DNA of 47,250 bases from Verrucomicrobiota bacterium (lineage in GTDB: Bacteria; Verrucomicrobiota; Verrucomicrobiia; JADLBR01), in the NCBI GenBank assembly GCA_029560585.1, contig JAKQKQ010000209.1, positions 1 through 47,250 on the forward strand, read 5' to 3'. Made by a program: the position numbers and the translations under genes. Each line of letters begins with the position of its first letter. Position 1 is the stretch's first letter. The notes below the pieces were generated by a model. It was given only the letters and a program-made list of their open reading frames with translations. It had not been told where the DNA came from and made no database searches. This document shows, piece by piece, positions 669-38,701 of this stretch.

Positions 669-890
669 ATGTCGGTGGACTGTGAGGAATGCCGCGAGGA
701 GGTGCTTCGCCGCATCGAGCGCATCGAGGTCTGGGCCTTCGGGCCCACCGAGCAGAACGGCGCTCGGGGCGCCATCGAGGAGCTTCGGCGGAAGGTCGAG
801 GCAGTCCAGCGGTCGATCTGGCTCACGACCGGGGCGCTGGTCATCCTTCAGCCGGTGCTGATCGCCGCGCTGGTTAAGTGGCTTTTGTAA
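669..890 (+). CDS. Small coiled-coil plus membrane-helix phage protein (XhlA/holin-like)
   Basis: A 73-residue protein with an N-terminal amphipathic helix (about residues 5-45, with heptad-like Glu/Arg/Leu spacing and a CEEC pair at 5-8) and one C-terminal membrane helix (about 50-72, LTTGALVILQPVLIAALVKW). This layout and length match the XhlA-type haemolysin/holin-associated proteins of phages. A GGAGGCGAT ribosome-binding site stands directly before the ATG. Its neighbours are prophage genes, and the membrane protein at 4196 and the lysis enzymes at 4408 and 4911 are on the same strand, interrupted by the inverted cargo gene 926-4012. A holin-accessory role is inferred. Confidence 0.6.
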   Translation: MSVDCEECREEVLRRIERIEVWAFGPTEQNGARGAIEELRRKVEAVQRSIWLTTGALVILQPVLIAALVKWLL

Positions 891-925
891 AACAAGCGAA
901 GTCCGCCGCAGCGGCGCAGTGTGCG

Positions 926-3900
926 TCAGGGCTCGGTCACCTTGAGCCGCATGAAGAGTTTGTGATTCGAACCGACTGGGTAGGTGAAGGTGTGCGTTGT
1001 CCCGCCACCGGTGTCGGACACGGAGTCCCAGTGCACAAGGTCGGTTGAAACTTCGGCCCCGTAAATGATTCCGCTCACGCTAGAGGGCTGGGTGAACGTG
1101 ACGGTCAAGTTGTTCCCGTTGCGCGTCGGCAGAGGGAGCGCGGCCAAGTCCGCACGCCAAGGATGGAGACCGAAAGCGAACTCTTCTAGGTTCTTCACTC
1201 CATCACCGTCCGGGTCTGCCCCATCCGCTGCGCTGCCAGAGTTAGCCATGGTGCCAAAGTACTGGAAACGCCAACTTTCTGACGCCGTGATCACATTTGC
1301 CTTAGCGACAAACGCGGATACTTTCCCGCCCGCCGTCGCGAAACGGCCCCCCGCGTAAAGGTCCGTTCCGGATATGACCAGAGCATACATCATGTCGCTC
1401 GTTCCCGAGCCCAGGGCCGACCACGAGGTTCCGTTCCACTTGGCCACGAAATTCGCGGGGTTGCCGCCCGCCGTGGTGAAGTCGCCCCCCGCGTACAGGT
1501 CGTTGCCGGACACCGCCAGTGCACTCACCATGCTGTTCATTCCCGAGCCCAAGGCCGACCACGAGGTTCCGTTCCACATCGCGATGTTTGTTGCCCCGAT
1601 GCCGCCAGCCGTAACAAAACTACCACCTGCGTACACGTTCGAACCGGCCACTGCCAGCGCTCCAACGTAGGGCTCAAATCCGGTCACTCCCCCGTTGAGT
1701 GCCGACCACCATGTGCCGTTCCATTTTGCGATCCGACTCGCCCCGATGCCGCCTGCGGTGGTGAACCAGCCCCCCGCGTACAGGTTGGTCCCGGATACCG
1801 CCAGAGCACGGACCGCGTCGTTCATTCCTCCCAAAGGTGACCATGTGCTCCCGTTCCATCTTGCGATCCGATTGGCCGTGATGCCGCCTGCGGTGGTGAA
1901 CCAGCCCCCCGCGTACAGGTTGGTTCCGGATACCGCCAGAGCAGAGACCACGTCGTTCATTCCCGCACCCAAGGGTGACCATGTGCTCCCGTTCCATCTT
2001 GCGATCCGATTGGCCGTGATGCCGCCTGCGGTGGTGAACCCGCCCCCCGCGTATAGGTTGGTCCCGGATACCGCCAGAGCACAGACCTCGTTGTTCATTC
2101 CCGAGCCCAATGGGAACCATGTGCTCCCGTTCCATCTCGCGATATAACTGGCGTTGGTCTCGCCCGCCGTGATGAAGGCGCCTCCTGCGTACAGATCGTT
2201 GCCGGATACCGCCAGCGCCGTGGCGGCCATATTCATCCCCGAGCCGACATCCAACCAGTCGCAGCCGTTCCACCTGGCAATGTGGTTCATGCTGCGGCCA
2301 CCCATATCAAGGAAATTGCCGCACGCGTAAAGGTCGTTGCCCAATACCGCAAGCGCAGAGACACCGCCGTGTGTTCCCGATCCCACAGCCGACCAAGAGG
2401 TTCCGCACCACTTTGCGACATTATTCGCGGGGTTGCCGCCTGCGGTGCTGAACGCGCCCCCCGCGTATAGGTTGGTCCCGGATACCGCCAGAGCACAGAC
2501 CGCGTCGTTCAATCCCGAACCCAGAGGGGACCATGTGCTCCCGTTCCACTTCGCGATATTTTTCGCCCCGATACCGCCTGCGGTGGTGAACCCGCCCCCC
2601 GCATACAGATCGTTGCCGGATACCGCTAGCGCAGAAACAGAACCGTCCGTACTCAAACCCACGTCCGACCAATTGGTGCCATTCCACATGGCGATGCCGT
2701 TCGCAAAGAACCCGCCCGCCGCATTGAAGCTTCCCCCCGCGTATAGGTTGTTACCGAATATCACCAGTGCGATAACCCAGCCAGCCGTCCCCGATCCGAG
2801 AGCCGACCATGCAGTTCCGTCCCACTTGGCGATGTTGTACGCGAGACGGTCGCCTGCTCTGGTGAACAAGCCCCCGGCGTACAGGTCCTTGCCGGACACC
2901 GCCAGCGCGCTGACGCAGTTACCGTAGACTGGTTCGCCTATCCCCGAGCCCAGGGCCGACCACGAGGTTCCGTTCCACTTGGCCACGAAATTCGCGGGGT
3001 TGCCGCCCGCCGTGGTGAAGTCGCCCCCCGCGTACAGGTCGTTGCCGGACATCGCCAGTGCACGCACCATGCCGTTCATTCCCGAGCCCAGGGCAGACCA
3101 CGAGGTTCCGTTCCATTGGGCGATTCGGTTAGCAACCACATCGCCGACGAACCTGAAAGCGCCACCAATATATAGATTCCCTGAAGCATCCACGGCCATA
3201 GCATTGACGTACTGATCCGCGCCACGGATGCCCCCCATGCTAACCCAATCCTCGTCACTGAACGTGGGGTCGATGCGCACGGGATAGGTGGCGCCCGTGT
3301 CGTCCAGGACGAGGTCGAGGCGAGAGACGGAAGCGACCTCGATGCGGGCGGACAGTTCGCGGTTCTGTGCGTCTATCGCGCGCAAACGGCTGTAGGCGAT
3401 CTTTCGCCCCGTGCCTTCGTACACCAGCCGGGCGCCGTGGGCGAGCGGTTCAGCCCGCGCGCCAGTCACGTCGAGTTCCAAGCGAAGCTCACCTTTCCCG
3501 CCGGGCCGTTCCAAAATGAGAAAATCCTGCCGCACCCCGTCCATGCTCACGGAGTATTCCTCCTCCACGCCGGGACGAATGAAGCGCGCGACTTTTCCCT
3601 GCACGCTCACCTCGCCGTTGGCGGGCAGGGTGATTTCGGCTGTGTCCTTGCGTCCGAGCGCTGAGGCGATCACCCGGAAACGCACGCTCCGGGATGCCTC
3701 CTCCGTGGAGGTCAGCCACAGCCCCTCAGTCGTGGCTTGGCCTTCGAGCTTCTGGAATACGCATCGCAGCCGCGCCCCGCCTTCGGTGGCTGAGACGCCG
3801 AGGCCGTCACCCTTGTACTGCTTCTCCGCGGCGGCCCCGATCTGGTCGAACGGGATCGGCGCGGCCTTCTTTTCGGCGGGCGCGTTGGTTTGCGCATCGG

Positions 3901-4012
3901 CGGCCAGCGGCAGGGCCATGGCGAGCAGCAGGCACCGGCGGCCGAAGGTGGCCAGCGGTTTGGACGGAGCAGAGACGGTGGACGCGATGAGGGCGAGGCG
4001 GCGCGGGTACAT
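926..4012 (-). CDS. Large secreted 14-repeat protein (beta-propeller-like), prophage cargo
   Basis: A 1028-residue exported protein. Residues 1-41 form a long signal peptide with the hydrophobic part CLLLAMALPLAADAQ. Residues about 45-260 form an N-terminal beta-rich region ending in YPVRIDPTFSDEDW. Then come 14 repeats of about 48 residues, each with a core like 'WNGTSWSALGSGM', 'ALAVSGNDLYAGGDFTTAGG' and 'ANFVAKW' (residues about 270-905). The C-terminal part has a calcium-binding-looking loop (ADGADPDGDGVKNLEEFA) and an 'EVSTDLVHWDSV' domain seen at the ends of verrucomicrobial exoproteins. The repeats resemble beta-propeller blades. The gene is transcribed against the phage lysis genes on both sides and does not look like a phage function, so it is probably a lysogenic-conversion gene. 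Role unknown; adhesion or an extracellular structure is possible. Confidence 0.8.
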   Translation of the reverse strand: MYPRRLALIASTVSAPSKPLATFGRRCLLLAMALPLAADAQTNAPAEKKAAPIPFDQIGAAAEKQYKGDGLGVSATEGGARLRCVFQKLEGQATTEGLWLTSTEEASRSVRFRVIASALGRKDTAEITLPANGEVSVQGKVARFIRPGVEEEYSVSMDGVRQDFLILERPGGKGELRLELDVTGARAEPLAHGARLVYEGTGRKIAYSRLRAIDAQNRELSARIEVASVSRLDLVLDDTGATYPVRIDPTFSDEDWVSMGGIRGADQYVNAMAVDASGNLYIGGAFRFVGDVVANRIAQWNGTSWSALGSGMNGMVRALAMSGNDLYAGGDFTTAGGNPANFVAKWNGTSWSALGSGIGEPVYGNCVSALAVSGKDLYAGGLFTRAGDRLAYNIAKWDGTAWSALGSGTAGWVIALVIFGNNLYAGGSFNAAGGFFANGIAMWNGTNWSDVGLSTDGSVSALAVSGNDLYAGGGFTTAGGIGAKNIAKWNGSTWSPLGSGLNDAVCALAVSGTNLYAGGAFSTAGGNPANNVAKWCGTSWSAVGSGTHGGVSALAVLGNDLYACGNFLDMGGRSMNHIARWNGCDWLDVGSGMNMAATALAVSGNDLYAGGAFITAGETNASYIARWNGSTWFPLGSGMNNEVCALAVSGTNLYAGGGFTTAGGITANRIARWNGSTWSPLGAGMNDVVSALAVSGTNLYAGGWFTTAGGITANRIARWNGSTWSPLGGMNDAVRALAVSGTNLYAGGWFTTAGGIGASRIAKWNGTWWSALNGGVTGFEPYVGALAVAGSNVYAGGSFVTAGGIGATNIAMWNGTSWSALGSGMNSMVSALAVSGNDLYAGGDFTTAGGNPANFVAKWNGTSWSALGSGTSDMMYALVISGTDLYAGGRFATAGGKVSAFVAKANVITASESWRFQYFGTMANSGSAADGADPDGDGVKNLEEFAFGLHPWRADLAALPLPTRNGNNLTVTFTQPSSVSGIIYGAEVSTDLVHWDSVSDTGGGTTHTFTYPVGSNHKLFMRLKVTEP

Positions 4013-4195
4013 AGAGGTAGAGGGTAGGGAGCTTGGTTCTGGATGTCCGGGGGAGAGACTTCACCATGGGGGGCGCCTTGAATGCCGACAGGGCCGCTGA
4101 AGGCACTCGGACCACGGATGCCTTTGTAACGGATCGGTGTTCGTTAATCAACCACCATCGCCTGGAAGCCGGATCTTTGACACGCGCCCAGGGGA

Positions 4196-4408
4196 ATGAA
4201 CTGGGCACTCGCCGCGAAGATCCTCACCAGCCCGAAGGCCAAGGCGTTCCTCGGGTCTTCGGCCCGCCACGCGCTGACGGTTGGCGCGGGATGGCTCGCG
4301 GCCCACGATCTGCTTGATCCCTCAAAGAAGGAGACATGGGTGGCCGCCGCCCTCCTGCTCCTCGGTTGGGGCTGGGGTCTGATCGAGAAGGCGGCCCGGG
4401 AGGCGTGA
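4196..4408 (+). CDS. Small membrane protein, holin candidate
   Basis: A 70-residue protein with an N-terminal helix, a weak hydrophobic stretch (HALTVGAGWLAAHDLL, about 25-40) and one strong membrane segment (WVAAALLLLGWGWGLI, about 48-63), ending in a charged tail EKAAREA. The ATG follows an AGGGG ribosome-binding site. Its stop overlaps the start of the next gene (ATGA at 4408-4411), so translation of the two is coupled. Size, topology and placement directly before two cell-wall enzymes suggest a holin, but small holins have little sequence signature and the call rests on context. Confidence 0.6.
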   Translation: MNWALAAKILTSPKAKAFLGSSARHALTVGAGWLAAHDLLDPSKKETWVAAALLLLGWGWGLIEKAAREA

Positions 4409-4914
4409 TGATCGTATCCCTGTTTGAGCGGGGTTCCGGTCCCGGTACGGCCGCTTTGCGATGGTGGCAGCGGTGTCCCTTCGCGCACGTCAAGACGGCG
4501 TTCCTGCTGCCCGATGGTTCATGGAAGATCCTCGAGGCGCTGGGGGAGATCAATCGGGTGATTTGGCGGGATCCGGTCCCGGCCGATGCCCTGGCGCGGA
4601 CGCTCGCTTTCGTGGACGCGCCCGATCCGGTGGACGAGGCCCGGGCCGCAGAATTCGCCGCCGCCCAGGACGGCAAGGGCTACGACTACGCCGGCATCGG
4701 CGCCTTCCTCGCCCGGAGGGACCGGACGGCCGCCGAACTCCAGCGCGAGCGCGAGGGAAGGGAGGTCTGGTTCTGTTCGGAGATTGATTTTGCCATCGCC
4801 GCCAAGGCGGGCCGACTGCTTCACGCACGCATGCAGCCCTTCGAGTGCAGCGTCCGCGATGCGTGGATCAGCCCCGTCCGCATCGAAATCCCCAACCCCC
4901 TACCACGCACATGA
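4408..4914 (+). CDS. Permuted NlpC/P60 (YiiX/YaeF-like) papain-fold hydrolase
   Basis: A 168-residue protein. It has the order of landmarks of circularly permuted NlpC/P60 amidases: a His early (H27 in PFAHVK), an acidic residue on the next strand (E43 in ILEAL), a GYDYAGIGAF helix start (91-100) and the nucleophile Cys late (C123 in WFCSEI). Such enzymes act on peptidoglycan peptides or lipids. The start at 4408 was chosen because it overlaps the previous stop (ATGA) and gives a protein that begins at the first beta strand; upstream in-frame codons belong to another gene. The gene also overlaps the next one by four bases. The lysis-cassette context suggests an endolysin-type role; a host-modifying role is not excluded. 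Confidence 0.65.
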   Translation: MIVSLFERGSGPGTAALRWWQRCPFAHVKTAFLLPDGSWKILEALGEINRVIWRDPVPADALARTLAFVDAPDPVDEARAAEFAAAQDGKGYDYAGIGAFLARRDRTAAELQREREGREVWFCSEIDFAIAAKAGRLLHARMQPFECSVRDAWISPVRIEIPNPLPRT

Positions 4915-5492
4915 GCACCATAGTCCCATCCCAGCGTCCCAAGGTTTCCGAAAAGAGGATCGCTGAGATCCTCGTCGAGCGCGGCGTGCGCGATCCGGTA
5001 GCGGTGGTTGGCTGGCCCGGTTGGTTCGCGGACATGGGCAGGCCCGGCAATGACCGCGGGATCTACGACGACGCCATCATCGTGGCCACGCCCACGGCGT
5101 TCGCCGCCTTCAACGGCAACGTCGATCCGGTCGGCAGCGGATGGAATCCGGGCGTGGGTAAACCCTACGCGTCGCTGAAGCCCGGCGTGTGGCAATATCA
5201 TCCCGGCTGGCACAAGTGGGGCAGCCCATTCGGCCACCCCGCCTTCCGCCAGGCCGATGAGGTCACCGTCATCCGCGATCCCGCGAACGGGAAGGGGACG
5301 TGGGAGGAGACCGGCGACTTCGGCATCAACATCCACCGGGGATCGTACAGTTCGCCGTCTTCGTGGGGTTGCCAGACCATCTGGCCCGACCAGTGGAAGG
5401 CGTTCTACGAACTGGTCACTTCCGAGCTGCGGCGCCACGTCGCGCCGAAGATCGAGGACGCCGTGTTCCCGTACGTGCTCCTCGGGCGCTAG
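4911..5492 (+). CDS. YkuD-like (L,D-transpeptidase-fold) putative endolysin
   Basis: A 193-residue protein without signal peptide. Its C-terminal half carries an H-x-G ... S-x-G-C pattern (IHRG at 141-144, SSWGCQTI at 150-157) matching the catalytic layout of YkuD-type L,D-transpeptidase-fold enzymes, where Cys154 would be the nucleophile and His142 a partner. The pattern is followed by a PDQWKAF helix. Residues 1-60 include a helical segment (VSEKRIAEILVERGV). The start overlaps the stop of the permuted NlpC/P60 gene (ATGA at 4911-4914). Phage proteins with this pattern are usually left as hypothetical; a peptidoglycan-cleaving role is inferred from fold and location. Its last 77 bases overlap the integrase gene on the other strand. 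Confidence 0.55.
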   Translation: MSTIVPSQRPKVSEKRIAEILVERGVRDPVAVVGWPGWFADMGRPGNDRGIYDDAIIVATPTAFAAFNGNVDPVGSGWNPGVGKPYASLKPGVWQYHPGWHKWGSPFGHPAFRQADEVTVIRDPANGKGTWEETGDFGINIHRGSYSSPSSWGCQTIWPDQWKAFYELVTSELRRHVAPKIEDAVFPYVLLGR

Positions 5493-6687
5493 CGGGTCCG
5501 CGAGGCACGACTTCGCCCGAAAACCACTTCTTTGCCTGGTCTGGAGTGACCAAGTTGCCGGCGAGATCGCGGATGGACCGGTAGGATCGGTAGATCTCCT
5601 GGGGGCTGTTGCCGCATTCGTCCGCGACGCGGGCGACGTCACCGATCTCGGCGACCCGGTAGCTAATATATGAGTCGCGAAGGCCATTGCGGGGCCAGCG
5701 ACCGAGGAGCGCGCGGGCGATGGGCTCCATGCGATGCTGGGGGCGACCCTCGATCAGGAGCGACAGTTTCGACATGAGCGGTTCGAGTTTGCTGGCCAAT
5801 TCGGGCCGGAGGGGGATGAGCCTCGGACGGCCCGTGAGCAGTTGTGCGTGGCCCTTGGTCTGGGTTTCGTCGAGCGCGATCCAGCCGGTGTCCCAGTGGA
5901 GCGAGTTCGGGGTGATGCGCTCTATTTCCGCGGAGCGAATGCCCGCGAGGCCGCCCAGCAGCAGCCAGACGCGGCATTGATCGTCCGGGGCCATCTCGTA
6001 AAGGCGCCAGAACCACTCGGGCGGTATGACGGACTTTTCGCCATGCCGGATTCGGGCGCGGGTCACGCGCTCCGGCGCGGTCTTGCCCTCTGGCAGGAAG
6101 CCGCGGGATTGGGCGAACCGGAAGAGCGTGGTCCATGCCGCCCGGTAGTTGTTGCGGGTGCGGGCGCCGCCCACGCCATCGAGAGCCCTTTCGATGTCCT
6201 GGGTGGAAATCTCTCCGATGCCGCGTTGACCGAAGTGCTCCGTGATCCGGATCATGTAGTGGTGGAGCGTCCAGCGGTACCGCTTCGACCGGTCCTCCCG
6301 GGACTCGAGGAACTGCTGCGCGAGTTCGGCGACCTTCGCCACGCCCGCGGGGGGGCGGTGCTGGACGTAGAAGCGGGCGGCCTCGATGAGTCCTGCACCG
6401 GTGCCTTGCAGGATTGTTTTGGCCTCGGCGAATGCGGCCGCGTCGGCGGGAGAGATCCATTTGCCGAACGAGGCGATCTTCGGGCTGCGGGAGCGGAGCT
6501 TTTCGAGGAGGGCCTGTTTCGATGCGGCGCGGGCAAAATGGTTCTTTCCGCCCATGCGCGCATAGGCGCGCCAGTCCCCATCCTGCCAGATGCGCCACGT
6601 GACTCCGTTGAGGAGCTGATTTTGCCGGATTTTGTCAGACGCTTTTTTCGCCACCGCTGACAAAATCTGACAAAACCGGAGGGCCAT
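5416..6687 (-). CDS. int: Tyrosine recombinase / phage integrase
   Basis: A 423-residue site-specific recombinase that would insert and excise the element at the neighbouring tRNA-Leu gene. An N-terminal arm- and core-binding region (about 1-200) includes the SAM-like segment KVAELAQQFLESRED. The catalytic domain shows the first Arg in GLAGIRSAEI, a Lys region (DETQTKGHAQ), the second Arg in NGLRDSYISYR, and the Tyr in IYRSYRSIR. The two positions usually His are Asn here (NGLR and ECGNSP), a pattern I know from many verrucomicrobial integrases, so it is probably active. The last 25-30 residues are Arg/Ala-rich and lie antisense to the endolysin gene; they look like a tail gained by read-through. 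The start is the first ATG in the frame. Confidence 0.9.
   Translation of the reverse strand: MALRFCQILSAVAKKASDKIRQNQLLNGVTWRIWQDGDWRAYARMGGKNHFARAASKQALLEKLRSRSPKIASFGKWISPADAAAFAEAKTILQGTGAGLIEAARFYVQHRPPAGVAKVAELAQQFLESREDRSKRYRWTLHHYMIRITEHFGQRGIGEISTQDIERALDGVGGARTRNNYRAAWTTLFRFAQSRGFLPEGKTAPERVTRARIRHGEKSVIPPEWFWRLYEMAPDDQCRVWLLLGGLAGIRSAEIERITPNSLHWDTGWIALDETQTKGHAQLLTGRPRLIPLRPELASKLEPLMSKLSLLIEGRPQHRMEPIARALLGRWPRNGLRDSYISYRVAEIGDVARVADECGNSPQEIYRSYRSIRDLAGNLVTPDQAKKWFSGEVVPRGPASARGARTGTRRPRSSARRGAAARK
6625..6679. promoter_or_regulatory. Repeated TGACAAAA boxes near the integrase start
   Basis: Three copies of a ten-base motif lie within 50 bases: CTGACAAAAT (6657-6666), CTGACAAAAC (6667-6676), and the reverse complement ATTTTGTCAG (6629-6638). 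With flanking CCGG the outer two form an inverted repeat of about 13 bases. They lie inside the first 20 codons of the integrase gene, close to the presumed attachment site. Arm-type integrase or excisionase binding sites, or a repressor operator, are possible. No function can be proven from sequence. Confidence 0.35.
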
Positions 6688-6738
6688 TTCAAGCCCAAAT
6701 GGACCATTTCTTCCCTCTGAGCCTCATGGGTGAGAGGG

Positions 6739-6819
6739 TGCTGGAGACAGGACTTGAACCTGCACGCCTTGCGGCACTGGAACCTAAATCCAGCGTGTCT
6801 GCCATTCCACCACTCCAGC
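6739..6819 (-). tRNA. tRNA-Leu, anticodon UAG
   Basis: Read on the minus strand from 6819, the sequence folds as a class II tRNA: a seven-pair acceptor stem (GCTGGAG with CTCCAGC), an anticodon stem CTGGA/TCCAG with loop TTTAGGT giving anticodon UAG, a long variable arm (TGCCGCAAGGCGTG) and a T loop TTCAAGT. The discriminator is A at 6739. The next bases are CCC, so a full CCA end is not encoded. The 3' end points to the integrase and is the likely attachment site of the prophage. Confidence 0.95.
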
Positions 6820-6941: not shown

Positions 6942-9900
6942 ATGATTTACCATAGCATGGCTGTTGTGGCGGCGAGCGCAGGTCAAGAGCACTGGCTGTC
7001 TTACACCTGTCCGCATTGCCTCTCGATCTTGGAGGTCGACGGGGATTGGTCGGGACAGGTGGTGGGATGTCCTAGTTGCGGGAGCAGTGTGCAGTTGCCA
7101 CGGCTGGGTGATCCGGGTTTGCGCGACCGGCGTTGCACGTGGTGTGGACTGCGGGCCTCATTCATGGGATTTCGGGCGAACGGGCAATTCGTTTGTCCGG
7201 GCTGTCGTGCGGCGGTGGACAAGAGTCCGGAGCGCTCCAGGGCGATGGACGCGGGGCCGGTTTCGGTGGTGGTGCCCAAGGTTGCACCTGAAAAGCGATC
7301 GAAGCAGGAGACGCAGCATATCACGCTTCCGACCCGCGACCCGAAGAAGAGCGGGGCGGAGGCAGGTCTGCTGAGGGCTGCGCCCATCGTGCCTCGACCG
7401 CAACCGTCGGCCGGTGCGAGATTTGCGGGGAGCGGGCCGACGTCGCCCGTCTCACCGCCGGTGGTGCCCGTCCCAGCGGTTCAGGCTACACAGGCCCAAC
7501 CGTCGCCGGACACCGCGAGAGTGGCGCGGCCGTCTGCCACGATCGCCGCGTCGCCGACGCCGCTATTTCCGCCGATCGTGCCGCGGCATACGCCAGTCAT
7601 GGCGCCGCCAGTCACTCAGAAACCGGGGACACCGAAGCCCGGCGCGCCAGAATCGGTGTCGGGCGTGGCGGCGACCCCGGAATCGCAAGCGATCAAAGCG
7701 AGCACGGGAACAGGCCGGGGGCCATTCGCGTCGGTTTCGAAAGGGCCGAAGGAGGCCGTCATGGCCACGCCCGTCAAGGGGGAAGAGCCCAGGCCGAAAA
7801 AGGAGTACGCGAAGTTTTTCCAGGCGGAGCCAAAGGCGGAGGCGGTGAGTCCGGAGAAACGGGAGCCCACCCCTCCGCGGAAAGAGGGGCCCTTGGGCGT
7901 GGCGGTGGAGCGTCCGGCGCCAGCGGCGGCCGAAGTGCGGCCGGTGGCGCGCGAGAAACCGCAAGGATTCCCGTGGATGGTCCCGGCCCGCGTCACGAAG
8001 AAAGACGTGCCGGTGCCGATTGTGCGGCCACCGGTGACATTGCCTCCGGTGTTCAAAGGCAGTGCCACGGGAGGACCCTCTGCCACGCTCGCCAAGAAGG
8101 CGACGGACGTGATTGCGGACCTGCGCGGGGTCACTGAAGTCGCCAAGTTTCCGAAAACCGGGATTTCCAAAGGCGGGCCGCAGGCGGCGGTGCCCGCACC
8201 CGTTCAGCAGGGCGAGCCCGAATCCCACGCCGCTCCCTCGCGGCCACTCGCAGAGGGAGGGGCTGGCCCCGCCGAGAAAGCGCCGAAAAAGGTCGAGCCT
8301 GTTGCGGCAAAGGTCGAAAAAGGCGGACCGTCGGCCGAGGCCAAAGACTTGGCTGGGCCTGGAGAGTCGCCTGCTGGGAAAGGTGCGGCAGAGGCAACGC
8401 CGCAAGCGTCCGCGATCGAGATTGCGGCGGAAATCTCGCCCGCTCCGTCCGAGAAGGAGGCACAGCCCGAGTCCGCCTTGGGTCCCAGGGAAGGCGAGGG
8501 TCGGGGGGCGAGTGCCGAGGATGCGCGTGAGGCGGAGTTGGCCTCTTTGGGGCCGGCTTGGCTGGAGGCTTTTGACAGGGAACGGGTGATCGCTGGTAAA
8601 GCGGCCCGTCGCGACGCGAAGAAGGCCGCGGCCGTCTCCGAGATCCCGGCGAAGGGGCCAGTGCCGCACGTTGAGGGGTCCGGGGTGGCTGTCGGGGCAG
8701 AGCCGATGCCTGCCGCGAAGGAGGCGGCTCCAGCGGTGTTTATCACGCCCGCTGAGACCGTCCCCCCCTTGGCCGGGCCTGAAGCGGAGGTCGTTGAGGA
8801 ACCGATATTCGAGATGCCCGCGCTCGAGGACATGGGGGCGGAGGCCGCCGCTGAGGAAGCGGGAGGCGGAGGAACCCTCGAATCGGAGGGCGAGGCCGAG
8901 ATCAGGTTCGAGGCCGAAGAACCGGCTGAGCCATCCGACCTGTCGGAGGCGGTGGCCGAGGCCGCCGCGGTGGTCCCATCGGATTTGGCGGGAGAGCAGA
9001 CCGACGAGGTGATGTTGGGCGCCCCTCCCGCTGAGGGAGGAGACCAAGGGGGCACCTTCGGGCCCTCAACCATTGCCTTGCCTGCCGCTGTCCCCATAAG
9101 GATAAGGGCGACCACCCGGAAGAAGACGGATCGCATCCCGCAGCCTGGGCCGTCCGGAAACGGGGGTGCTCTGGCGAGCGCTGTCCCGCCAGAGGTGTCT
9201 GCGAGGGCACTGAGACTCGCGGACGCGATTTCTGGCGCGGGCGCGAAGGACTCGACCCGCGGCCCGGTGGGCGCTGTCCGGGATTGGATCGAAGACCATC
9301 TGCCACTCCTGTTGGTGACCGGGCTGCTGCTGACGGTCGGGGCCACCGTGTTCGCGCTCTGGCGTTCGGCGGAAGGCAAGGCCATCTCCGAGGTGGGGTT
9401 CTGGACGCCGGCGGATTTCCAGACATTCCAGAAGGGGATGTCGATGGTCAGGGATGGCAAGCTTCGCGAGGCGGTGGACGCGATCAGGGCTTCCGCGACG
9501 CGGGTTTCGGCCGATCCGGGCCTGCGGACATTCTATCTCGAATTGCGCGCAGCCCTGGGCGAGGCCCCCTCGACCACCGCGGAGATCGGCGGATTGCTAC
9601 AGGCGCGCGAAGCCGGCCCCGGCATCGCGGCCCGGATATTGACATGGGAGGCCGCATGGCACCACCCGAATATCGATGGGCGGATGCGGGCCGCGGACGT
9701 CCTCAGCCGACTGGGGGCAACCCACCGGCTGCCGCTCGCGGAGCGGGAGATCCGGAGAGCCCTCGGCGACAGCGCGGATGCGGCACTCGGGCCGAGGCCC
9801 GGGGGCCTGGACGGCTACCGGTGGGACGAGCGGTTTGTCAGGTGGTACTACCTGAGGGCGGCCACCGGCGACAATGATGCCCGGGATCGGCTGATCGCCT

Positions 9901-10802
9901 GGGTCAAGGACCCCCAGACCGACAGGATTCGGCGCGAGGCCGCGAGTCTGGCATTGCTCGCGCTGGATGAGCCCGATGCGGAGAAGATTGTGCACGATGT
10001 CTGGCAGGAACAGATGCGGATCGAGGCGATTAATTTCCGCGTGACCACCAGCAGGGCGCTGGGCATCGATGGCGGCAAACTGCCTCCCGAAGAGGTCCGC
10101 CGCATCCGCGATTGGGCCACCAAGGAGGTCGGTTTCTCGATCGCGCGGGCGTTCGGACTCCTTTATGAGCACGGGATACCGTCGGGGCTGGAGCTGCTGG
10201 ATACCACCGCGCGAAACGACGGGGTCTATGGCTTCCCGGCGATGGCCGCGGTCGCCGAACTGAACCGCGTCCTTGGGGGCAAGGCGCTCGGGCGGATGGC
10301 GGCCATCCGGGAATACTGGAGGGCGGAGCTTGAGAAATTGCGGGCCGATCCCAAGGAGGCGGCCAGCGAGGTGGGGCAGACATTCCAGAAAGTCATGGGG
10401 CGGATCATTGAGGCCGTCACGATCGAGATGGCGAGGGCCGGGGACGAGGCAGCCGCCAAGGAGGTCACGGCCGGACTGAGCGCCGAGAACGATTTTGACA
10501 AGGTGCAGGCGGCGCTGAAGTTGGGCGAGCGGGGCCTGGAAGTGGCCATGCCGATGTTGGTGGACATCGCCAAGGGAGCCGAAAAACCCGTCGCCTCACA
10601 GGAGGAGAAGAAGGAGGTCAAGCGCGTGCTGTTGGAGGATGGGCGCGGTCCGGTGGCAAAGGCGTATCTGGAGGGCCTGCTCCAGGATGCCGACGCGGCG
10701 ACGCGTTTCGGGGCCGCGTGCCGCTTGCTCGAACTGCATCTGGAGGCGCAGCCCAAGGCGGTGCCACCGGCAGACCTGTCGCCCCCCAAGGCCGCCAAAT
10801 GA
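6942..10802 (+). CDS. Giant zinc-ribbon / disordered / transmembrane / helical-repeat protein, function unknown
   Basis: A 1286-residue protein with four parts. Residues 20-92 hold two zinc-ribbon-like units (CPHC at 23-26 with CPSC at 43-46; CTWC near 65-68 with CPGC near 85-88). Residues about 95-780 are a low-complexity Pro/Ala/Glu/Lys-rich stretch, surely disordered. One membrane helix follows at about 786-806 (LPLLLVTGLLLTVGATVF). The last 480 residues are mostly alpha-helical and look like TPR/HEAT-type repeats (for example KGMSMVRDGKLREAVDAI). The N-terminus should be cytoplasmic and the helical domain on the other side of the membrane. It lies 56 bases upstream of a CtpA-type protease gene, so the two may act together. 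A second ATG at 6957 is possible. No family is recognised. Confidence 0.8.
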   Translation: MIYHSMAVVAASAGQEHWLSYTCPHCLSILEVDGDWSGQVVGCPSCGSSVQLPRLGDPGLRDRRCTWCGLRASFMGFRANGQFVCPGCRAAVDKSPERSRAMDAGPVSVVVPKVAPEKRSKQETQHITLPTRDPKKSGAEAGLLRAAPIVPRPQPSAGARFAGSGPTSPVSPPVVPVPAVQATQAQPSPDTARVARPSATIAASPTPLFPPIVPRHTPVMAPPVTQKPGTPKPGAPESVSGVAATPESQAIKASTGTGRGPFASVSKGPKEAVMATPVKGEEPRPKKEYAKFFQAEPKAEAVSPEKREPTPPRKEGPLGVAVERPAPAAAEVRPVAREKPQGFPWMVPARVTKKDVPVPIVRPPVTLPPVFKGSATGGPSATLAKKATDVIADLRGVTEVAKFPKTGISKGGPQAAVPAPVQQGEPESHAAPSRPLAEGGAGPAEKAPKKVEPVAAKVEKGGPSAEAKDLAGPGESPAGKGAAEATPQASAIEIAAEISPAPSEKEAQPESALGPREGEGRGASAEDAREAELASLGPAWLEAFDRERVIAGKAARRDAKKAAAVSEIPAKGPVPHVEGSGVAVGAEPMPAAKEAAPAVFITPAETVPPLAGPEAEVVEEPIFEMPALEDMGAEAAAEEAGGGGTLESEGEAEIRFEAEEPAEPSDLSEAVAEAAAVVPSDLAGEQTDEVMLGAPPAEGGDQGGTFGPSTIALPAAVPIRIRATTRKKTDRIPQPGPSGNGGALASAVPPEVSARALRLADAISGAGAKDSTRGPVGAVRDWIEDHLPLLLVTGLLLTVGATVFALWRSAEGKAISEVGFWTPADFQTFQKGMSMVRDGKLREAVDAIRASATRVSADPGLRTFYLELRAALGEAPSTTAEIGGLLQAREAGPGIAARILTWEAAWHHPNIDGRMRAADVLSRLGATHRLPLAEREIRRALGDSADAALGPRPGGLDGYRWDERFVRWYYLRAATGDNDARDRLIAWVKDPQTDRIRREAASLALLALDEPDAEKIVHDVWQEQMRIEAINFRVTTSRALGIDGGKLPPEEVRRIRDWATKEVGFSIARAFGLLYEHGIPSGLELLDTTARNDGVYGFPAMAAVAELNRVLGGKALGRMAAIREYWRAELEKLRADPKEAASEVGQTFQKVMGRIIEAVTIEMARAGDEAAAKEVTAGLSAENDFDKVQAALKLGERGLEVAMPMLVDIAKGAEKPVASQEEKKEVKRVLLEDGRGPVAKAYLEGLLQDADAATRFGAACRLLELHLEAQPKAVPPADLSPPKAAK

Positions 10803-26980: not shown

Positions 26981-27105
26981 CCGGAAAATAGGGCGTAACG
27001 ACCGAGTAGCGAAGGGCTTGCGCCCTTCGGCGTAGGTCGGGGCGTTCGCCCAAGCCGGGATGTTGGTAAAATCGCCTCTGGCGATCGGCTTGGCTACGAT
27101 TTTCC

Positions 27106-27138
27106 GCCCCGGTGGTCCGGCAGCCGCCGGATGGGATC
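27106..27138. repeat. Module A2 (CCGGTGGTCC... palindrome)
   Basis: GCCCCGGTGGTCCGGCAGCC then GCCGGATGGGATC; the reverse complement occurs at 38540-38571 with few changes. It stands before module A here but on the other side of A in the second copy. Confidence 0.75.
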
Positions 27139-27147
27139 TGGTTCGAA

Positions 27148-27221
27148 AATTCAGATGCCGGGCAGTAGGAGCCTGCTTGCAGGCGATCCCATGCGCGAAT
27201 CGCGCGCAAGCGCGCTCCTAC
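27148..27221. repeat. Module A, 74-base nested palindrome
   Basis: The sequence starts AATTCAGATGCCGGGCAGTA and contains GTAGGAGC at 27165-27172 pairing with GCTCCTAC at 27214-27221, around inner hairpins CCTGCTTGCAGG and GCGCGCAAGCGCGC. It matches the reverse complement of 38579-38652 almost base for base, 11 kb away. Confidence 0.8.
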
Positions 27222-27407
27222 GTCTCATATTTACCCTCGATGGTGCCCCTAATGCCCACCGTCGGGCGGGCGGCCGGGAATGATGTCTGACCTAAGACTT
27301 CGCGCGCGTTTGGTGCCTCGCAGAGACGCCCCACAAGTCGTGTGGGACGCGGCAACGGGCGTCGAGTTTCCCCATGAATGATGCGGCGCGAGCCGTGAGG
27401 CTCTGCA

Positions 27408-37296: not shown

Positions 37297-38540
37297 GCCG
37301 GGCGGCTCGTCCTTCGAGTTTTGCGGACATGGAGGCCCGGCGCCTGGATTTTCCGGCGCTGGATCAGGACGTCAACGGGAACCGGCTCGTTTATCTGGAC
37401 AACGCGGCCACGACGCAGAAGCCGCGCGCGGTGATCGGAGAGATCCGGCGGTTCTATGAGCGGGACAACAGCAACGTCCATCGCGGTGTCCACGAGCTGA
37501 GCAATCGGGCGACCCTCGGCTACGAGGGCGCGAGGAAGCGGGCCGCCGAGTTCCTGAACGCGACCTCCGCGGAAGAGATCATTTTTACCAGGGGAACGAC
37601 CGAGAGCATCAATCTCGTTGCGTCGGCATGGGGCGCGCGGCACCTGCGGCGGGGCGACCGCATCCTGCTCACGGAGATGGAACACCACAGCAACCTCATC
37701 CCGTGGCAGTTGCTTGCGGCGCGCGCCGGGGCACGATTGGATTTCGTTCCGGTGACGGGCGATGAGGGGCTGCTGGATCTCGGGCGGATCGATGAGTTGC
37801 TCGACGGGACACGGTTGTTTGCGTTTACCCACATCTCGAACGCGCTGGGGACGGTGAATCCGGTCGGGGAATTGTGCCGCCGGGCCAAGGCGGCGGGCGC
37901 CGTGACGCTCGTGGACGCGGCGCAGAGCGCCGGTCATGCGCCACTAAACGTGCGCGAGATCGGGTGCGATTTCCTGGCCCTGTCGGCCCACAAGATGGCG
38001 GGCCCGACGGGCATGGGCTTGCTCTATGGCCGCCGGGAGTTGCTGGAGGCGATGGATCCGTATCAGGGCGGGGGAGAGATGATCTCGAGCGTCGACTTTG
38101 GTGGCAGCACATGGGCGGCGGTGCCCCACAAATTTGAGGCGGGGACGCCCGATATCTCCGGCGCTTTCGGCCTGCGGGCGGCCATGGATTATCTCGACGG
38201 CATCGGCCGCGACAGGATTCTGGAGCATGATCGGGCGCTCGGAGCCTATGCTTACGCCCGGCTCGCGGAGATCCCCGGAATCCGGTTGCTCGGTCCCGCC
38301 GAGGGACGCGCCGGACTCGTCAGCTTCGTGCTCGGCGACGTGCACGCGCACGATGTCGTGATGCTCGCCGACCGGGTGGGCATCGCCCTGCGGGGTGGCC
38401 ACCATTGCACCCAGCCCCTCCACCGGAAACTGGGCGTCGAATCCACCACGCGCGCCAGTTTCTATCTCTACAACACCGCCGAAGAGATCGATCGGTTGGC
38501 GGATGTCCTGCGCGAGATAAAGCGGTATTTTTCGCGCTAG
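37293..38540 (+). CDS. sufS: Cysteine desulfurase SufS
   Basis: A PLP enzyme of 415 residues that takes sulfur from cysteine and passes it to SufU. Motifs are LVYLDNAATTQKP at the N-terminus, NVHRGVHELSNRAT, TEMEHHSNLIPWQ, the PLP lysine Lys234 in LSAHKMAGPTG, and the active Cys372 in RGGHHCTQPLHRK. The motif order and length are those of group II desulfurases. The GTG at 37293 was chosen because it overlaps the sufT stop and leaves the usual 20-30 residues before the LDNAATT motif. It ends the suf operon; repeat modules follow. Confidence 0.95.
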   Translation: MSRAARPSSFADMEARRLDFPALDQDVNGNRLVYLDNAATTQKPRAVIGEIRRFYERDNSNVHRGVHELSNRATLGYEGARKRAAEFLNATSAEEIIFTRGTTESINLVASAWGARHLRRGDRILLTEMEHHSNLIPWQLLAARAGARLDFVPVTGDEGLLDLGRIDELLDGTRLFAFTHISNALGTVNPVGELCRRAKAAGAVTLVDAAQSAGHAPLNVREIGCDFLALSAHKMAGPTGMGLLYGRRELLEAMDPYQGGGEMISSVDFGGSTWAAVPHKFEAGTPDISGAFGLRAAMDYLDGIGRDRILEHDRALGAYAYARLAEIPGIRLLGPAEGRAGLVSFVLGDVHAHDVVMLADRVGIALRGGHHCTQPLHRKLGVESTTRASFYLYNTAEEIDRLADVLREIKRYFSR

Positions 38541-38571
38541 GTCCCATCCGGCGGCCGCCGGACCACCGGGG
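38540..38571. repeat. Module A2, reverse orientation
   Basis: GTCCCATCCGGCGGCCGCCG then GACCACCGGGGG, reverse complement of 27106-27138 with small changes. It starts at the last base of the sufS stop codon. Confidence 0.7.
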
Positions 38572-38578
38572 GTAAGTC

Positions 38579-38652
38579 GTAGGAGCGCGCTTGCGAGCGA
38601 TTCGCGCATGGAATCGCCTGCAAGCAGGCTCGTACTGCCCGGCATCTGAATT
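38579..38652. repeat. Module A, reverse orientation
   Basis: GTAGGAGCGCGCTTGCGAGC, inner hairpins, then TACTGCCCGGCATCTGAATT. It is the reverse complement of 27148-27221 with only a handful of differences. Confidence 0.8.
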
Positions 38653-38701
38653 CTCAGCCCGCTGGAGAACGCCATCGACTCCGCGCGCGTGGTCCGATTT
38701 C

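Follow-up and report, generated by a model that had tools for sequence, protein, structure and literature searches.

We analysed a 47,250-nucleotide stretch of DNA (hereafter the window) that makes up an entire contig (JAKQKQ010000209.1, here C234) of a draft Verrucomicrobiota assembly (GCA_029560585.1; 7.06 Mb, 336 contigs, 4.2% estimated contamination), and within it a gene for a large secreted-type beta-propeller protein at positions 926-4012 on the reverse strand. The propeller gene runs antisense to late phage genes on both sides (tail-side, small-protein, holin and lysis-side genes) and sits between two small membrane-type proteins, smallB and the holin. The first-pass annotation had described a gene that opposes the phage genes around it and splits two small membrane proteins, and both points were upheld by the open reading frame (ORF) call and by the identification of smallB and a PF23987 holin. 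The contig starts inside the prophage, so only its last ~6.7 kb are visible:

2-370, forward: last part of a conserved late (tail-side) protein that the contig start truncates; it shares 95% identity with the end of L006:14004-15362.
380-652, forward: smallA, a 90-residue late protein, 91% identical in contig C83.
669-890, forward: smallB, a 73-residue membrane-type protein and left border of the slot; 89-93% identical in contigs C83, C61 and C299.
891-4170, no strand: slot of variable cargo in this prophage family; its right border is approximate.
926-4012, reverse: cargo gene for the propeller protein; intact ORF, Rax2 match (7e-17) and AlphaFold model.
4196-4408, forward: holin and right border of the slot; PF23987 (E 1.5e-7, score above cut-off).
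4408-4914, forward: conserved late protein, possibly (by eye) an NlpC/papain-like lysis enzyme; 83-89% identical in 6 of 6 prophages.
4911-5492, forward: conserved late protein, phrog_3000 (6e-13); 86-94% identical in 6 of 6 prophages.
5416-6687, reverse: tyrosine-type integrase, phrog_1 (9e-18); its counterpart at this tRNA in a sister species is 96% identical.
6737-6819, reverse: tRNA-Leu (ARAGORN), the integration site, whose 3' end adjoins the integrase start.

The late genes, holin, integrase and tRNA-Leu establish that the flanks of the propeller gene are prophage, and the sampled genes past the tRNA-Leu are chromosomal (S41 peptidase, TsaD, SufB/D, SecDF). SmallB carries a single C-terminal hydrophobic segment (by eye), and a lysis role for the products of 4408-4914 and 4911-5492 is suggested by their position and the neighbouring holin. 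A search for a second attachment copy of the tRNA-Leu end gave no convincing partner. We compared six related prophages or prophage ends from two draft genomes of one genus: the window, C83, C61 and C198 in its own genome, which thus holds at least four, and C201 and C299 in a sister species, the only one available (G001, deposited under the name Verrucomicrobiia bacterium SJ186). C61 carries a long prophage with terminase, portal, major head protein, tape measure, primase, helicase and integrase, which together with the integrase and tRNA-Leu in the window bears out the earlier assignment of the flanking genes to a prophage. Integration sites differ: the window and C201 elements lie at tRNA-Leu, with 96% identical integrases and syntenic chromosome beyond; the C83 prophage (L006 6405-8000) lies at a transfer-messenger RNA (tmRNA) gene and carries a different integrase of its own; and C61 lies beside tRNA-Asp. 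A decayed remnant of the family, with broken NlpC-like and phrog_3000 genes, also lies beside tRNA-Asp on a sister-species contig (G001:C234, L042 8574-9929). Scans of IMG/VR with the propeller, phrog_3000 and NlpC-like proteins found no relative of this phage, and distant phrog_3000 homologues in other families were set aside as uninformative on the slot, their late-gene layout being different.

Alignment of these elements delimits a slot of variable content. Homology of the flanks ends at the smallB stop (890) and, in relatives, ~25 bases before the holin; the right border lies near a recurring TTGACA-like stretch. The slot holds the propeller gene in the window and in C83. In C61 it holds a methyltransferase operon: a 757-residue DNA methyltransferase (N6_N4_Mtase; DUF1156-type by PADLOC), a 264-residue partner of no assigned family and a membrane protein. 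In C201, where the left border lies off the contig, the holin-side part holds a type III restriction enzyme and methyltransferase (PADLOC 7e-125 and 8e-207), so that restriction-modification rather than the propeller is found there despite the same tRNA-Leu and 96% identical integrase. A DUF3223/HamC-type gene (PADLOC 2e-29) occupies the slot in C299, and the ~300 bases in C198 contain at most a tiny membrane ORF and no large gene. The five filled slots thus show four kinds of content, with one slot lacking large cargo, and in each of the five the large cargo is oriented against the late genes. Each of the three cargo loci without a propeller has a PADLOC match at 1e-29 or better, a small sample; among ten chromosomal window genes used as a control, one matched at 1e-10, a cysteine desulfurase with a generic match. 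The slot is therefore a prophage hotspot, with different cassettes at one locus and known defence genes enriched in this small sample. The absence of the propeller gene from C61, C198 and C299, together with the other antisense genes held by filled slots of relatives, agrees with the placement typical of lysogenic conversion that had been proposed from the window by itself. Within the C61 slot lies a second, truncated smallB (L038 11203-11324; 81% identical to window 694-815), a probable footprint of recombination at smallB by which cassettes were stacked there.

The propeller gene encodes 1028 residues from an ATG start, uninterrupted by stops. It is not a chance ORF, because a homologous intact gene lies at the same place in the C83 prophage and the ratio of computed non-synonymous to synonymous divergence (dN/dS) between the two is ~0.23-0.26. 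This ratio suggests that purifying selection maintains the protein, whose parts are as follows, all on the reverse strand:

3890-4012: signal-peptide-like region, residues ~1-41 (by eye), with a hydrophobic stretch before an AQ conserved in homologues.
3248-3892: N-domain, residues 41-255 (~215 residues), outside any Pfam family; four relatives of the genus have it at 54-74% identity.
1295-3208: 14 repeats of ~46 residues and four strands each, a predicted tandem beta-propeller (repeat analysis, AlphaFold, Foldseek).
929-1270: C-terminal tail, residues ~915-1028, 69% identical between the two prophage copies.

The N-terminus has a long n-region followed by CLLLAMALPLAADAQ (by eye), from which we infer export through Sec; a 19-residue hydropathy scan found no strong transmembrane helix (maximum 1.56). 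Repeats begin at residues 269, 315, 366, 412, 458, 504, 550, 596, 642, 688, 733, 782, 828 and 874, spaced by 45-51 residues (mostly 46), and the region extends to residue ~906. At the DNA level, 95% identity between repeats 2 and 13 points to recent exchange or duplication. The protein matches the Pfam Rax2 beta-propeller family (PF12768) at 7e-17 (62.1 bits, cut-off 28.8), and its repeats match phrog_5490 at 2e-37. An AlphaFold model of residues 41-910, built from a 17-sequence alignment and replacing a five-sequence run with a predicted local distance difference test score (pLDDT) of 55, reached a pLDDT of 87.1 and a predicted template modelling score (pTM) of 0.74. It shows 14 units with four strands per repeat, in agreement with the repeat count and with the number given in the first-pass annotation. 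Foldseek matches to the model include tandem propellers, among them the GH74 enzyme 6p2k (E 8e-13, template modelling (TM) score 0.41) and the ribosome-assembly double propeller 7mq8_LT (TM 0.44). With a profile score above cut-off and a predicted propeller fold, the protein is modelled as a beta-propeller of the Rax2/WNGxxW repeat type, and the natural reading of 14 repeats would be two seven-bladed rings. Repeat motif and propeller fold are what it has in common with Rax2; unlike the fungal protein it is bacterial, with its own N-domain and 14 repeats, and the role of Rax2 does not apply.

Comparison of the window with C83 bears on how the cargo came to its place. DNA identity is ~90% in both flanks and falls to ~65% across most of the cargo, the drop lying close to the cargo borders. 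The immediate cargo junctions align between the two elements, which would be compatible with a single ancestral insertion and later replacement or rapid divergence; simple common descent of the cargo with its flanks is in doubt, given the much lower identity of the cargo, for which cassette replacement or faster evolution may be responsible. Synonymous divergence is 0.28-0.44 in most flank genes, 0.71 in one flank gene and 0.73 in the N-domain; the full-protein value of 1.11 is probably inflated by misalignment of repeats. In a tree of the N-domain, both prophage copies group with a copy on contig C36 of their own genome (98/96), and with each other weakly (82/71); the C36 copy has no relative of these phage genes within 7.5 kb. 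Of 384 genomes of the class, 31 encode the N-domain. Outside this genome, the strong homologues that we inspected look chromosomal, with LpxA-type, DnaK, TyrRS, RibBA, 6PGDH and UvrD-like genes as neighbours in our own gene calls, and two lie in tandem in the sister species. To the question raised earlier, how often homologues lie in prophages, the answer here is the intact copies in the window and C83, the others looking chromosomal. Since the non-prophage homologues look chromosomal, we read the propeller as a gene that phage took from the host lineage, and not as a family of phage genes; entry into the phage from the host lineage is most likely on this evidence, and transfer from phage to host is possible.

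Traces of the propeller family also occur elsewhere in the genome: a degenerate fragment lies among chromosomal genes on contig C94 (G000; L008 8870-9436) and a further N-terminal piece where contig C1 ends (L019), from which the family appears to gain and lose copies. A phage collection searched with the propeller returned only Leptospira phage LE1, weakly (30% identity over 27% of the query), and a plasmid search returned three Hymenobacter records and one Leptospira record. The YPVRIDP part of the N-domain recurs in an unrelated phage-like protein (IMG/VR L121 and L122, both 7530-8639; 40% over ~60 residues), so this module is more widespread than the propeller family; the two IMG/VR matches were rejected as phage relatives, being weak and in a different phage-like protein.

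Prophage defence hotspots are known from P2-like phages and P4-like satellites (PMC9122126), and lambda bor and lom exemplify accessory genes of envelope type that a silent prophage expresses (PMC7067206), so hotspot and accessory gene are both of known kinds. The P2/P4 hotspots resemble the slot described here in occasionally carrying non-defence cargo and differ in adjoining the cos site, whereas here the slot interrupts the lysis region of an unrelated Verrucomicrobiia phage family (PMC9122126). Unlike in those hotspots, every large cargo seen here so far is antisense, and one encodes a giant exported-type protein. New are the host group, the location within the lysis region and the way in which intracellular restriction-type cargo alternates with a giant exported-type propeller; no published description of such a slot or propeller cargo was found in the literature searched, the coverage of which was incomplete. 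The bor and lom proteins are unrelated to the propeller, the likeness being that of an accessory envelope-type gene, with expression of the propeller presumed (PMC7067206). Exported superinfection-exclusion proteins include Ltp of TP-J34 and Glo, a soluble periplasmic protein of a Vibrio cholerae phage (PMC3952083). These are prophage-encoded, exported and act outside the cytoplasm, as the prophage-encoded propeller is predicted to do, a likeness for which we claim no sequence relation; Ltp, unlike the propeller, is a small lipoprotein encoded in a lysogeny module, and exclusion by the propeller is a proposal (PMC3952083).

That the propeller gene is prophage cargo is very probable. The slot of this temperate tailed-phage family separates a small membrane protein from the holin inside the lysis region, and we propose that cassettes oriented against the late operon could be expressed from an otherwise silent prophage. 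The propeller would then be made during lysogeny, and on or outside the cell it might hide or obstruct a receptor, or obstruct DNA entry, and so protect the lysogen against phages that compete for it. This explanation as a whole, lysogenic-conversion cargo in a variable slot with likely surface protection against competing phages, stands at about an even chance. Exclusion at the surface is favoured because the other identified slot contents are of restriction or defence type and because some known superinfection-exclusion proteins are exported; the remaining cargo types point to it without showing it. Several points weigh against it: the propeller has no PADLOC match, a simple sigma-70 scan found no promoter for its gene, the homologues inspected beyond the two prophages look chromosomal and have no tie to defence, and the slot evidence comes from only six elements of one genus. 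Defence hotspots also carry other cargo, in P2-like phages sometimes a toxin or partition system (PMC9122126), so we hold the exclusion function, argued by analogy, only tentatively. The stronger proposal, that a host-derived secreted tandem propeller is a surface phage-exclusion factor and a new structural class of prophage defence acting before DNA entry, appears rather unlikely.

The toxin and partition cargo of P2 hotspots (PMC9122126), together with chromosomal homologues in ordinary contexts in many genomes of the class, fits cargo that would benefit the host in ways that have nothing to do with phages: a secreted propeller that binds carbohydrate or protein could help the lysogen to attach, capture nutrients or form biofilm, and would be kept for that advantage. 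We regard this as a credible competitor, short of an even prospect, against which the restriction and defence types of the other identified slot contents count. Accidental capture, in which a host gene was gained by imprecise excision or recombination and brings no benefit, would suit the closest non-prophage relative lying in the same genome; the gene is, however, intact in two prophages with a dN/dS of ~0.23-0.26, and the slot repeatedly takes functional cassettes, which makes mere accident improbable. Propeller-like viral proteins found by Foldseek, including the tail fibre of Caulobacter phage Percy, the phrog_5490 match of the repeats and the weak match in Leptospira phage LE1 would suit a component of the virion, for instance a tail fibre or receptor-binding protein. 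That idea was dropped and is very improbable: the gene is antisense to the late operon, has a signal-peptide-like start and is absent from sister prophages that retain other late genes, and its N-domain is common to chromosomal proteins.

Prophage defence hotspots are known from a few phage groups, and this one lies in Verrucomicrobiia. The slot provides a rule for finding candidate defence genes, namely the content between smallB and the holin, and singles out the propeller protein as a candidate that may protect the infected cell or alter it. Should the propeller exclude phages, an extracellular class would be added to prophage defence hotspots, and the unexplained secreted propeller family of the class would become testable.

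Elsewhere in the window, a 1286-residue chromosomal gene with weak family matches only adjoins the integration site (6942-10802); its product has a zinc-ribbon-like start and a long Ala/Pro/Glu-rich stretch. A dispersed repeat resembling repetitive extragenic palindromic (REP) elements occurs at 27001-27250 and 38527-38655, ~86% identical to pieces of C83 (L006 188-349 and 3927-4207).
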